Below, one piece after another: positions 3,571-24,346 of a stretch of 56,915 nucleotides of DNA. The stretch's first letter is position 1. Every line of letters starts with the position of its first letter. This DNA comes from a virus, in IMG/VR virus record IMGVR_UViG_3300007735_000758, positions 1-56,915 of that record, one strand, 5' to 3'. The translations under genes were made by a program, and so were the position numbers. Below the pieces are notes generated by a model. The model did not search any database. It had not been told where the DNA came from and saw only the letters and a list, made by a program, of their open reading frames with translations.

Positions 3571-3840
3571 TCAACCCCAGAAGACAGTAATACGGTCAAG
3601 AGCCGTAGCGGAAAGATAGATGTCGGTAGAAAAACGAACGCCCTGCCCATTCAATGGCACAGGGAAGTTGGCGTTAGCACCGTATCCAATCTCAATTTTA
3701 GTAGTGCCACCAGACCCACCGTCTTTCATGGTAAGAACGCCAGCCTGCTGAGAGTGGATTATAATGCAGCATACGCGCCCAGGGCCTTGAAAGACATAGC
3801 CGTTTGCTGTCATGCACTTCGACTGAAGATCACTAGTCAT
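3571..3840 (-). CDS. Small late-operon protein, possible minor virion protein
   Basis: An 89-aa, beta-rich sequence with alternating hydrophobic residues (VCCIIIHSQQAGVLTM, IEIGYGANANFPVPL, DRITVFWG). This resembles small jelly-roll or Ig-like decoration proteins, but no family is recognised. It overlaps the upstream gene by 8 nt and its stop lies 1 nt before the DUF6496 start. Its place among structural genes suggests a virion component. Confidence 0.6.
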   Translation of the reverse strand: MTSDLQSKCMTANGYVFQGPGRVCCIIIHSQQAGVLTMKDGGSGGTTKIEIGYGANANFPVPLNGQGVRFSTDIYLSATALDRITVFWG

Positions 3841-4171
3841 ATCGCTTCACCTTTTGACTGGCAGGAGGAGCTTTCTTGCTTCCGCTAGGGCCAGCCCACA
3901 ATACCTTTCTCGACCAATAGTTAGCCGACAGCTTGGAGTCCTTGCCTTTGATCCCGGCGCTACGAGCCATATAACTCTTACGCGCCGCAGCAGAATAGTT
4001 GTGTCCCATCTTGGCATCACCAAAGTGGACCAGCTTTACCTGATCTCCTTCTTTTGCCAGGACCATCTTCTTCTTTTCAGGCTTCGAGGATTTAATCGGC
4101 TTGTTGAAACCGGGGAACGTGTGTCCCCGGTATTCAATGCCACCGCTAGGCGTTCGCTTGAAGCTGGGCAT
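3833..4171 (-). CDS. Conserved phage protein with MVL..GDQVKLVHFGD motif
   Basis: A 112-aa basic protein. The middle contains KMVLAKEGDQVKLVHFGDAK, followed by a helix with RKSYMARSAG and ending in YWSRKVLWAG. I recognise this arrangement (VxxGDxxKxVHFGD, then SxxAR, then YWxxKxLW) from widespread phage proteins of unknown function that often sit near capsid or tail genes. It follows the 164-aa beta-rich protein with a 9-nt gap. No catalytic residues are evident. Confidence 0.65.
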   Translation of the reverse strand: MPSFKRTPSGGIEYRGHTFPGFNKPIKSSKPEKKKMVLAKEGDQVKLVHFGDAKMGHNYSAAARKSYMARSAGIKGKDSKLSANYWSRKVLWAGPSGSKKAPPASQKVKRYD

Positions 4172-19862: not shown

Positions 19863-20480
19863 CTACTCCCCCTCCCCCACCCCCGTGGGGGCCTCCGCTA
19901 CCGCCTCCAGCATCAAGCCACCAGGGCTAACATCACCATCCATGTTAGTAACATCAGAGTAAGTGGTAGTAAGTGAGTTAGCGCCATGCGTCTCCATGTT
20001 ACCAAGTAACATAGTTAGTTTGGCTCGCAACACATCGCCGAGTGACTTATTCAACTCAGCATTACTCTCGTTTGATGATGGCTCTTCGAAGATACTCGCG
20101 TATCTTGTTTTACCTACAAGCTCTAGTGCTTTCAGCCTGGTTATGTCTGAATCGGTGTTAGTTGCGGTATTAGTGAGGCCGTCCATGACGAACTTACGGA
20201 GCCTGGTCTTATCCTCCCACCAACTTGCCATTCTCTCCGCCTCCATTGCTTGTATCGCTACCGCAACATTAGGCTTCTTACTAACCTTCACCGATTGCAC
20301 TCTACCAGCGTTTGCGTTCCCATTCCACTTATACGCTTGCCTGTAGGCTTCCGCCTTACTAAGCCCTCCAAACACCAACCCCTCTGCAAACTTTCTCTGT
20401 TTCGGCGTTAACTTGCCTACTATCTCCTCTAGCGTGAGTTTCTTTCCATCCTGATAAACCCTAGTTACTTTGTTACTCAT
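19863..20480 (-). CDS. Putative terminase small subunit
   Basis: A 205-aa protein with LTPKQRKFAEGLVFGGLSKAEAYRQAY near residue 24. This is the helix-turn-helix pattern typical of small terminase subunits that recognise packaging sites. A central helix (DKTRLRKFVMDGLTNTATNTDSD then ITRLKALELVGK) follows, and a low-complexity, Asn/Thr-rich C-terminus. It is a lone leftward gene surrounded by rightward genes, far from the large subunit at 11.2 kb. There is no Shine-Dalgarno; TATAGT lies just upstream on the minus strand, so a short leader is possible. Confidence 0.7.
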   Translation of the reverse strand: MSNKVTRVYQDGKKLTLEEIVGKLTPKQRKFAEGLVFGGLSKAEAYRQAYKWNGNANAGRVQSVKVSKKPNVAVAIQAMEAERMASWWEDKTRLRKFVMDGLTNTATNTDSDITRLKALELVGKTRYASIFEEPSSNESNAELNKSLGDVLRAKLTMLLGNMETHGANSLTTTYSDVTNMDGDVSPGGLMLEAVAEAPTGVGEGE

Positions 20481-20520
20481 GCGACTATATTAACACATAT
20501 TAATCTATCCTTTCGCATAT

Positions 20521-20547
20521 AAGGAAACACGCGCGCGCGGTTTCCTT
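20521..20547. promoter_or_regulatory. 8-bp dyad AAGGAAAC/GTTTCCTT with CG-repeat loop
   Basis: Perfect 8-bp inverted repeat flanking an 11-nt alternating CG-rich loop, 40 nt upstream of the small terminase start. It could be an operator or a hairpin; nothing decides. Confidence 0.4.
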
Positions 20548-20613
20548 TAATCGCAAAAAAACACCAAACGAAAATTGCGGCGGCGGGCCCCACGAGCGCT
20601 ATTTCCGATAAGT

Positions 20614-20705
20614 CCTTTGTTTTCAACAAAACCCCCGAAATCTGGGACTTTTTTGGGAGAACATTAAAATCCCTCAATAATCGCTATCTCGTTGAAAACA
20701 AAAGG
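20614..20705. repeat. 14-bp inverted repeat flanking a 63-nt spacer
   Basis: CCTTTGTTTTCAAC at 20614-20627 is matched on the other strand by 20691-20705 (one extra A). In between lies GGGACTTTTTT, itself able to pair with AAGTCC at 20610-20615 to form a terminator-like hairpin on the plus strand. Confidence 0.5.
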
Positions 20706-20760
20706 ATTGGCCGGATGGACTTTCCTATAAACGGCGTGATTGAATAGTTGACAGTGGTGA

Positions 20761-20794
20761 CGCCGCCGCCTCAGGGCTGATAAACGTAAGCCGA
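20761..20794 (+). repeat. 34-bp iteron-like repeat, copy 1
   Basis: Identical over 34 bp to copy 3 at 20991-21024. It ends in the core GATAAACGTAAG. CTC and GGC near the 5' side can pair with GCC and GAG at the 3' side in copy 3. Copies are spaced 119 and 111 bp. Confidence 0.75.
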
Positions 20795-20879
20795 CCATCA
20801 CGAAATAGCCTGGAGAGACAACCAGGCGACAGCACGCCAAACGGACAGTTTGTGATGCTGACTGAGTCAGGAAAAACCT

Positions 20880-20913
20880 TGCAGCCGCTTTAGGGCAGAT
20901 AAACGTAAGACGA
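20880..20913 (+). repeat. 34-bp iteron-like repeat, copy 2 (diverged)
   Basis: Same core GATAAACGTAAG and the AGGGC just before it, with several substitutions elsewhere relative to copies 1 and 3. Confidence 0.65.
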
Positions 20914-20990
20914 GGTTGTTCGATGTTGACGGTCAGCGGCATGGGCGGATGTTCCCCTATAACGTGCCGATGTGTCTTAGCATATAATCT

Positions 20991-21024
20991 CGCCGCCGCC
21001 TCAGGGCTGATAAACGTAAGCCGA
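20991..21024 (+). repeat. 34-bp iteron-like repeat, copy 3
   Basis: Exact match to copy 1. It is followed by GAG that can close a stem-loop on the repeat, and by AGCTTACAAGCTAAG. Confidence 0.75.
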
Positions 21025-21137
21025 GCTTACAAGCTAAGATTCTCTCAGCCAACTACCAGTTAACGGAGTAAGTCACTAGGTAGACGTTGATCGTATCCAA
21101 TAGGAAACCCTCACGCGCAAGTAACAACGTGACGTTA

Positions 21138-21156
21138 AAGCCATAGCCTATGGCTT
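21138..21156. promoter_or_regulatory. 19-bp palindrome AAGCCATAGCCTATGGCTT
   Basis: Nine perfect base pairs around one central C. It lies 24 nt before the first 40-bp repeat. A dimeric protein binding site is plausible. Confidence 0.5.
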
Positions 21157-21180
21157 GTTGAGCAATAAATGCACGCGTTG

Positions 21181-21220
21181 CCGAAATAACAGTAACCATA
21201 ACGGTGAATACATAGTAGGC
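21181..21220 (+). repeat. 40-bp direct repeat, copy A
   Basis: Starts CCGAAATAACAGTAACC. It matches copy B at 21445-21484 except for a few substitutions in the middle and a shifted TA near the end. Confidence 0.75.
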
Positions 21221-21311
21221 GCATAAGCATAGCATTTAGCGGAGAAACACGCACCTACGGGAGCATCCGTCTAACGCATAATTGAACACTATAGGCACAC
21301 TGGTACTAACG

Positions 21312-21334
21312 TGTAAGTGATCCGGTCACTTACA
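21312..21334. promoter_or_regulatory. 23-bp near-perfect palindrome
   Basis: TGTAAGTGA and TCACTTACA flank a 5-nt centre containing CCGG. It is the longest palindrome in the non-coding region and is placed between the two 40-bp repeats. A second dyad, TTGGCGC/GCGCCAA, follows at 21346-21372. Confidence 0.6.
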
Positions 21335-21444
21335 GTCATATCATGTTGGCGCGTGGTAAAGGTAAGCGCCAAACAACGCAGAAGCGATAGCAAGTGGAGC
21401 GGGACAGGCGCGCTGATATATGGCACTCCGTCAGTAAATCAGAG

Positions 21445-21484
21445 CCGAAATAACAGTAACCCTAGCGGTGAATATACAGTAGGC
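21445..21484 (+). repeat. 40-bp direct repeat, copy B
   Basis: Second copy of the repeat at 21181-21220, 264 bp apart. The segment 21485-21562 after it is AT-rich. Confidence 0.75.
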
Positions 21485-21562
21485 CAGAATTGAATAGGAA
21501 CTATATATTAGATTAAACGCGAATAAGTTAAGTAGCGAGATAGTAGAAAAAGCCAAATCTAT

Positions 21563-21655
21563 AATGGGTCCGGTGCAAACTGGACCCATTTACCATTTAG
21601 CAACTAAATAAAGCCACATTCTGACAAGTGTGGCTCTATGTAGTTTCTAAACTAC
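21563..21655 (+). promoter_or_regulatory. Three consecutive leader hairpins
   Basis: AATGGGTCC/GGACCCATT (21563-21571/21582-21590), AGCCACA/TGTGGCT (21612-21618/21629-21635) and GTAGTTT/AAACTAC (21640-21646/21649-21655) lie in line just upstream of CAACAGGAG and the ATG at 21671. They lack U-tracts. A role in the 5' leader (pausing, translation or stability) is likely. Confidence 0.6.
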
Positions 21656-21670
21656 CAACAGGAGACAATT

Positions 21671-22348: not shown

Positions 22349-22419
22349 GGGCTGACAACAGCCCCAAGTGGTATCAACAAAGGGTAGCTACGGCTACCCT
22401 TGATTGGTGACACTTCACC
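22349..22419 (+). promoter_or_regulatory. Intergenic hairpin series before the Csx16-like gene
   Basis: GGGCTG/CAGCCC (22349-22364), AAGGGTAGC/GCTACCCTT (22380-22401) and GGTGA/TCACC (22406-22419) are all perfect. The last one ends 14 nt before ATG 22434. The first may act as a weak terminator or stabiliser of the preceding transcript. Confidence 0.6.
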
Positions 22420-22433
22420 TATTGGAGAAAGTT

Positions 22434-22757
22434 ATGTATATCATCATTTCGCGGCACCCTGCCGCTATCGATTTCATCCGCGCCAACGATGCGCGGTTTT
22501 TGACGGCGCCCGTCATCACGGGCAACGCCACGCCCGAAGATGTTCGGGGCAAGGTGGTAGCGGGTAACATCCCGCTATCCCTCGCCGCACTAGCAGACGA
22601 GGTCGTCGCCGTGGAGTTCTCCGGCGCACCGCCTCGCGGCGCGGAGTACACCGCCGCCGACATGGTCGCCGCTGGTGCGCGTCTGGAAGCGTATGTGGTC
22701 AAGCGCAGTATTGCGTTTGACTACTGCGTCACGCACTCGCGAGCTGACGCATTTTAG
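22434..22757 (+). CDS. Csx16-like protein (candidate ring nuclease / anti-CRISPR)
   Basis: A 107-aa protein resembling the CRISPR-associated Csx16 (VVA1548) family: N-terminal IIISRHPAAIDFIR, central VVAGNIPLSLAALADEVVAVEF and C-terminal PPRGAEYTAADMVAAGARLEAYVV. These match the family pattern SRHPGAxxW, GxxPLxLA, and RGxELxxxDMxxxGARLExYxV. Csx16 is normally found with type III CRISPR loci and has been linked to cyclic oligoadenylate degradation. A phage copy would lower that signal and protect against type III immunity; this role is inference. Start ATG 22434 follows TTGGAGAAAG. No CRISPR locus is present here. Confidence 0.65.
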   Translation: MYIIISRHPAAIDFIRANDARFLTAPVITGNATPEDVRGKVVAGNIPLSLAALADEVVAVEFSGAPPRGAEYTAADMVAAGARLEAYVVKRSIAFDYCVTHSRADAF

Positions 22758-22762
22758 TCGAA

Positions 22763-22804
22763 ACACGGGTATAACCCGTGTCTGCGGGAATTAGCCTACC
22801 CGCA
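22763..22804 (+). promoter_or_regulatory. Two perfect hairpins upstream of 22835
   Basis: ACACGGGT/ACCCGTGT with a 3-nt loop (22763-22781) and TGCGGG/CCCGCA (22783-22804), between the Csx16-like stop and AGGAGG. Confidence 0.55.
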
Positions 22805-22834
22805 CTGAAGAGACAGGCTAGGAGGATTGATTGT

Positions 22835-23089
22835 ATGTTGAATAGAAAGACCGTACGCGCCGCCAGGGTGCGGTTTGTTGAGGCGCTGTACAAGCGCCAC
22901 GCTGTTTCTGGGCTCCGTCAGGGCTACGATATCGCCCTGACTATTAGCATGAGAACAGGCGTCCCCGTGGCCGCTATCGTGGCTACCAAGGGTGAAGATA
23001 GCCTGACGTGGGGGTCATCCAGGATCAAACGCCACAAGGCGTGGAAATCGCTATTGCTGGAAGCAGACTTATTACTGGAGGTGGACTAA
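22835..23089 (+). CDS. Small basic protein of unknown function
   Basis: An 84-aa, Arg/Lys-rich protein (MLNRKTVRAARVRFVEALYK, then SGLRQGYDIALTISMRTGVPVAAIVATKGEDSLTW). The middle resembles a short helix-turn-helix (alternating helix, turn, TGVPVAAIV), but no family is recognised. Start ATG 22835 follows AGGAGG. Longer starts would read through the hairpins. It overlaps the following 27-aa gene by 1 nt (TAATG). Confidence 0.5.
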   Translation: MLNRKTVRAARVRFVEALYKRHAVSGLRQGYDIALTISMRTGVPVAAIVATKGEDSLTWGSSRIKRHKAWKSLLLEADLLLEVD

Positions 23090-23702: not shown

Positions 23703-23746
23703 CCAAGCACATTCTATGAGTGTGCTTGGATGAGTACACTGTACTC
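23703..23746 (+). promoter_or_regulatory. Two hairpins upstream of the clamp-like gene
   Basis: CCAAGCACA/TGTGCTTGG (23703-23711/23721-23729) and GAGTAC/GTACTC (23732-23737/23741-23746) are perfect and directly followed by the palindrome at 23747. Confidence 0.55.
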
Positions 23747-23762
23747 TGTCCAAATTTGGACA
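23747..23762 (+). promoter_or_regulatory. TGTCCAAATTTGGACA palindrome, site 1
   Basis: Exact 16-bp palindrome, 21 nt upstream of ATG 23783 and before AGGAG. As RNA it can form a 6-bp stem with an AAUU loop. Confidence 0.75.
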
Positions 23763-23782
23763 AACCAACTAGGAGAAAACCT

Positions 23783-24346
23783 ATGCTTACAAAGTTAAGC
23801 CTGATGATCCAAAAGATCGTATCGAAGGAAGCGTCCCGCTTCACCCTGAACGGGATCTTAATTACCAATAAAGAGACAGTGGCAACGGACAGCCACCGTC
23901 TAACACGGGTCAAGCACCTGTTCGTACAGGACAAGATGGACCGTCACGTAGTCCTGAAGGCGACAGATGCCATCTCGCTGTCTAAGATGGCAGGGAAGGA
24001 ACCCATCGAGGTTATGGGGGCCACTGCCGCAGACATATCCTTCCGCACCAGGGCGAGTAATACTACCTTCGAGCCGCTGGAAGGTAGCTTCCCGGATTAC
24101 CTGCGGGTTATCCCGTCTAAGACGGAAGACCATATCTGTATCATCTTCAACCCCAAGATGATGCAGGGTCTCATGGAGATCCACGGCGCTGCGGATGATT
24201 GCGTGCGGATGTATGTTCACCCGCGCAATCCCAACAACAACGCCATCATCCTCGAATCTGCGCGGGAAGATGGGCAGGACGTGCAGTCTCTCTTGATGCC
24301 CGTGCGAGACGCTGATGGGTACAAAGCCAGGAGGTACAGTGTCTAA
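23783..24346 (+). CDS. Short sliding-clamp-like (DnaN-type) protein
   Basis: A 187-aa protein resembling part of the beta-clamp: KIVSKEASRFTLNGILITNKETVATDSHRLTRVKHL matches the domain with LxGVLxE...ATDxHRL, and FEPLEGSFPDYLRVIPS matches the EGxFPDYxRVIP segment. A full beta clamp is about 370 aa in three domains; this one has about half that. It might form a smaller ring or act as a decoy or partner of the host clamp. The gene belongs to the early operon and its stop codon lies within palindrome site 2. Confidence 0.75.
   Translation: MLTKLSLMIQKIVSKEASRFTLNGILITNKETVATDSHRLTRVKHLFVQDKMDRHVVLKATDAISLSKMAGKEPIEVMGATAADISFRTRASNTTFEPLEGSFPDYLRVIPSKTEDHICIIFNPKMMQGLMEIHGAADDCVRMYVHPRNPNNNAIILESAREDGQDVQSLLMPVRDADGYKARRYSV

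Follow-up and report, generated by a model that had tools for sequence, protein, structure and literature searches.

A divergent Csx16-family protein of a tailed phage, a candidate anti-CRISPR predicted to cleave cA4, is encoded in an apparently exchangeable ribozyme-ended cassette

Csx16 has been shown to degrade cA4, but not cA3 or cA6, to linear products; cA4 is fully degraded by the characterised enzyme, whose specificity is kept even at high enzyme levels, and the family was found in two of 28,114 phage genomes (Hoikkala et al., PMC12409355). With these two earlier genomes (PMC12409355), phage-borne Csx16 as such is already known. Ring nucleases carried by viruses, such as AcrIII-1, are anti-CRISPRs (cited in PMC12409355). 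Hammerhead ribozymes have been described around single prophage genes, including the anti-restriction gene ardA, and transcript processing was proposed for them (Perreault et al., PMC3088659). A partial literature search found no link between Csx16 and ribozymes. The window analysed here, the whole 56,915 nucleotides of IMG/VR virus record IMGVR_UViG_3300007735_000758, contains both, side by side. The most probable reading is that a divergent phage Csx16 cleaves cA4 and dampens the signalling of type III CRISPR, and that it is expressed from a cassette ending in a ribozyme. The Csx16 family itself is known; more unusual is that the gene occupies an exchangeable cassette with a ribozyme at its end.

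The csx16-like gene occupies positions 22434..22757 of the + strand, with an ATG start at 22434, a TAG stop at 22755-22757 and a GGAG ribosome-binding site at 22424..22427, and encodes a protein of 107 aa. The preliminary description, made from the letters alone, had placed a Csx16-like gene at exactly these coordinates; the open reading frame is real, and each of the motifs quoted for it (SRHPAA, GNIPLSLA and RGAEYTAADMVAAGARLEAYVV) is found in the protein. The profile search that the same description had proposed for Csx16 / cas_VVA1548 gave a PF09652 (Cas_VVA1548/Csx16) match of 35.2 bits (E 1.5e-8), which exceeds the cut-off of 25 and covers profile positions 2-90 of 91. Csx16 was also the top PADLOC assignment, with two Csx16 models matching at E 6e-8 and 3e-7. 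NCBIfam TIGR02620, a hypothetical-equivalog domain model narrower than the Pfam one, scored 17.5 bits, under its cut-off of 46.35, which indicates a divergent member of the Pfam family and no TIGR02620 equivalog. Six-frame searches with PF09652 matched the csx16 frame alone in the 56,915-base record and nothing in 14 control genomes. Sequence searching of solved structures with the phage protein returned chance matches only. Judged by its sequence, the gene product is thus a divergent Csx16-family member, and the family call made earlier holds, given the PF09652 and PADLOC matches and the motifs that the protein has in common with cellular Csx16 encoded near cas genes.

The record is that of an environmental tailed phage, as follows from a PHROG gene set that comprises large and small terminase, portal, head/protease, virion and tail-fibre proteins, as well as a primase/helicase, an exonuclease, an Erf-like annealing protein, a Holliday junction resolvase, a dUTPase and an endolysin. 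The nearest named phages by TerL, at 55-57% identity, are 023Pt_psg01, Pelagibacter phage HTVC027P and DSL-LC04. No Cas10 or RAMP protein was found in the phage records searched and no CRISPR-like array in this record, in agreement with the initial view of a phage genome with no CRISPR locus. Apart from Csx16, the PADLOC matches, judged from the best 25 of 55 families, were mostly to the cytosine methyltransferase. The csx16 gene is therefore virus-encoded and lies outside any CRISPR locus, in a variable region that separates terS from the replication module.

Several other elements were observed around this region. Upstream of csx16, a structured RNA (22349..22414, +) folds into two hairpins, the long imperfect one capped by C(UACG)G, at -39.2 kcal/mol (z -6.17); its sequence is common to L002 and L004 only among the related contigs, it has no Rfam match, and it is possibly an RNase III-type processing site, a terminator or an undescribed element. 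Further upstream, about 1.2 kb of apparently non-coding DNA (20480-21670) bears a 43-nt motif three times, spaced 111-119 nt, and a 41-nt repeat twice, with no Rfam match at gathering score. Downstream, a gene of 84 aa (ATG 22835), for whose product no family was found, forms with its Shine-Dalgarno sequence AGGAGG (22820-22825) a unit at 22820..23089 (+). The protein encoded at 23720-24346 (+) has a best PHROG labelled RusA-like, also matches DNA polymerase processivity factors, and scores weakly against Pfam DNA_pol3_beta_2 (26.1 vs 27 bits); from these matches it is probably a phage sliding clamp. The palindrome GTCCAAATTTGGAC occurs at 23748, 24341, 24718, 25032, 25769, 27759 and 30556, that is, at seven sites with at most two mismatches against 0.13 expected. 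Five of the seven lie closely upstream of small-gene starts, the palindrome is present in related phages too, and GTCTAGAATCTAGAC occupies the corresponding place in other hammerhead phages; an operator or promoter element is probable.

Scanning of viral contigs for csx16 revealed eight loci, of which five (L002-L006) encode proteins with 86-95% identity to the phage protein and three (L007-L009) encode more distant ones. L002, L004 and L006 have the gene in the corresponding position, between a terS-like gene and an AAA ATPase/replication module, so that it belongs to the phage group and is no assembly artefact. Terminase and head genes, together with a methyltransferase gene, are also present on the L009 contig, which marks a second phage lineage with csx16. 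Profile-style rescans of the viral and genome collections added a single locus, L011. This contig belongs to an Armatimonadota MAG and bears both a RusA-like phage gene and a csx16 copy 65% identical to the present one; since PF09652 matched nothing else in 149 genomes of the phylum, L011 resembles a mobile element and not a host trait. In named phages, tblastn found no close homologue, and a plasmid Csx16 and the L007 protein used as queries matched only Methanobacterium virus Drs3, which has an annotated Cas_VVA1548 gene. The Allochromatium plasmid Csx16 has csm6, cas1 and cas2 close by, and the neighbours of the Deinococcus plasmid Csx16 have no annotated cas genes. Separately, an Allomeiothermus plasmid protein annotated Csx16 (L010, 4998-7013; about 670 aa) is, by sequence, an N-terminal Csx16 domain fused to a large region with no assigned family.

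Alignment of 11 Csx16 proteins showed H8, V27, V42, G44, P47, L50, R68 and G69 to be invariant and R7, G39, A51 and E71 nearly so, and the CRISPR-linked Allochromatium protein is among those that share the conserved motifs with the phage protein; active-site intactness was judged solely from this residue conservation. The tree of the same 11 proteins was weakly supported and was left out of the argument. Four phage csx16 copies gave dN 0.026-0.091 and dS 0.22-0.83, a ratio of about 0.11, which indicates purifying selection and, taken with the conservation of the gene in independent viral contigs, shows that csx16 is no chance reading frame.

An AlphaFold2 model built from the viral alignment reached a mean pLDDT of 87 and a pTM of 0.79. 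Foldseek found no significant match for it in the PDB or among viral models. A second aligner placed SiRe_0806 with cA4 (9jxx) at the top, with a weak Z of 4.6 over 87 residues at 3.5 A, followed by AFV3-109 of the AcrIII-1/Crn2 family (2j6b), with a likewise weak Z of 4.1 over 70 residues at 2.4 A; Cad1-CARF and AcrIII-2 ranked lower, amid unrelated Rossmann-like folds. The published Csx16 similarly matches 2J6B, with Z 4.8 (Hoikkala et al., PMC12409355). The model suggests that phage Csx16 may be CARF-like, and this small protein is probably a homodimer. Because cA4 ring nuclease activity is proven for Csx16 (PMC12409355), anti-CRISPR action by cA4 degradation is the best inference. The phage protein would most likely bind and cleave cA4, which Cas10 makes as second messenger in type III CRISPR, so that cA4-activated host effectors would stay off during infection. 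The preliminary description had named both cA4 and cA6 as substrates to assay; the first agrees with the characterised enzyme and the second does not (PMC12409355), which makes cA6 an unlikely substrate of the phage protein.

Immediately at the end of the gene, and overlapping its stop codon, lies an element (22756..22822, +) that matches the Rfam type II hammerhead model RF02276 at 37.1 bits against a gathering score of 37; a cousin copy reaches 42 bits. Ten copies, from this phage group and from Anoxybacillus phage A403, were aligned, and with the structure written out 99.4% of cells were paired. Compensatory changes on both sides occurred in 8 of the 22 pairs, a number reached in none of 500 shuffles, and slid structures gave at most one. 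The RNAalifold structure behind an earlier covariance model (R1) lacked the true stem II, and a second model, R2, took its place. The core elements GAAA and CUGANGA are invariant, GUC and the three helices are present, and loop I (UAGCCU, 22792-22797) forms with AGGCUA (22815-22820) a pseudoknot of six invariant pairs (22792..22820, +), as described for type II hammerheads (PMC3088659). From these sequence features the element is a type II hammerhead ribozyme, and its presence beside csx16 appears to be unreported. Cleavage is predicted after C22782, 25 nt beyond the csx16 stop. The predicted downstream fragment begins at the stem I hairpin, and the pseudoknot abuts the Shine-Dalgarno sequence of the next gene. 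Self-cleavage in vivo would separate the csx16 mRNA from that gene and leave it with a hairpin-capped 3' end.

Ribozymes also accompany csx16 elsewhere. The L005 gene is flanked on both sides by hammerheads (3656-3721 and about 4054-4120), a pair that is predicted to cut out csx16 as a monocistronic mRNA. The twister-P5 ribozyme of L011 (2831-2891, 56.4 bits) begins at the base directly following the stop of the gene 5' of csx16 and ends about 20 nt before csx16; a second twister (2487-2546), below gathering score, overlaps the stop codon of another small gene, the two small genes standing in succession.

From the csx16 start to the hammerhead end the phage is 87% identical to L006, and the flanks on either side are unalignable, whereas identity in the shared replication genes is only 65-68%. 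This block with sharp edges indicates that csx16 and the hammerhead appear to move together, exchanged between phages as a one-gene cassette; the right edge of the exchanged block in L004 again falls near the ribozyme end. The distribution of the ribozyme was surveyed with a pattern of relaxed loop lengths, which found hammerheads in 78 viral stretches (a fixed-length pattern gave no match because of loop-length differences). Among the 57 distinct viral hammerheads left after removal of near-duplicates, 41 begin no more than one base from the stop of an ORF that is 50 aa or longer, compared with 0.8% of control positions. The genes flanking them are mostly small and of no known family, csx16 being the sole CRISPR-related family among 69 scanned, which gives no support to the idea that hammerheads mainly mark anti-defence genes. 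The hammerheads at csx16 stops in several phages, the L005 pair, the L011 twister, the 41 abutments and the cassette edges are consistent with a broader but tentative proposal, to which we give distinctly less than even chances: that ribozymes at stop codons are a general punctuation of phage accessory regions, which would divide early transcripts into single-gene mRNAs with set ends and provide homology edges for trading anti-defence genes such as csx16 and ardA.

Other explanations of the protein and of the cassette have to be weighed against the same evidence. The cassette may be kept for its ribozyme, the repeats serving as homology handles that shuffle small genes, with csx16 as one cargo among others; the hammerhead does occur in 78 viral stretches beside many unrelated small genes, and the exchange edges do fall at its end. 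This reading is nevertheless rather unlikely, since it accounts for mobility but not for the purifying selection on csx16, and most such phages have one hammerhead copy per stretch. It is highly improbable that csx16 is a mere passenger that came from a host CRISPR locus and does nothing for the phage: variability of the locus and swapping of the cassette would fit, but a dN/dS of about 0.1 among four phage copies, persistence at one site in several phages and the gene's own ribosome-binding site argue for selection.

The remaining alternatives concern the activity of the protein. Phage Csx16 could be a sponge that binds cA4, or another cyclic nucleotide, tightly and cleaves it slowly or not at all. 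Csx15, classed alongside Csx16 among candidate ring nucleases, binds cA4 and is a very slow enzyme that still neutralises CRISPR when over-expressed (PMC13148439), phage sponges are already known, and the sub-threshold TIGR02620 score marks the present protein as divergent. Against these points stand the complete degradation of cA4 by the characterised Csx16 (PMC12409355), the retention of the most conserved family positions in the phage protein and the view, expressed in the Csx15 paper, that a sponge is poorly suited to the large amounts of cA4 that type III systems produce (PMC13148439); we consider a sponge unlikely. Quite unlikely, too, is a protein that keeps the Csx16 fold and acts on another signal, for example a nucleotide of CBASS, Thoeris or Pycsar. 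Divergence from CRISPR-linked Csx16, the broad specificity of phage-borne Crn4 (PMC12830947) and the fact that no type III host has been linked to the phage would fit such a role, but the Csx16 that was assayed stays specific for cA4 when much enzyme is present (PMC12409355), and the most conserved positions of the family are unchanged here. Cleavage of cA4 as an anti-CRISPR thus remains the preferred reading.

The present results add at least two phage lineages, and probably a third, to the known carriers of Csx16; the gene is mobile as a unit and evolves under purifying selection, and this lends weight to the idea that phages repeatedly destroy cA4 by means of many unrelated enzymes. The ribozyme setting offers a concrete hypothesis for how swappable phage anti-defence genes are packaged and expressed, and a stop codon joined to a hammerhead or twister may be a sequence marker for others. 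Compared with the type II hammerheads of prophages (PMC3088659), the present ribozyme is of the same class, with the same pseudoknot and a similar single-gene position, which there includes an anti-defence gene; here the gene is csx16, and the stop-codon overlap measured here is absent from the main text of that paper.

Like Csx16 (VVA1548) of type III loci, the phage protein is small and stand-alone, matches over the whole domain and has the RH, GxLP-type and RGxE motifs; unlike it, the phage copy lacks cas neighbours and falls below the TIGR02620 cut-off. Association with type III CRISPR is usual for Csx16, not obligatory. The plasmid and Drs3 members of the aligned set are about 27-37% identical to the phage protein. 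Drs3 (AXN53384.1) resembles the present case as a tailed virus genome with a Csx16-family gene, but it is an archaeal virus whose protein is 27% identical and whose gene has no Rfam ribozyme match nearby. The viral SAVED ring nuclease AcrIII-2 (9r8s) and phage Crn4 are likewise virus-borne degraders of cyclic oligoadenylates, from other families. The likeness to AcrIII-1/Crn2 (DUF1874) lies in the expected function, viral cA4 destruction, and in the weak similarity to AFV3-109; the sequence families differ, the Pfam scan of the phage protein giving Cas_VVA1548 only. Phage Csx16 would be a functional analogue of AcrIII-1 drawn from a different protein family.
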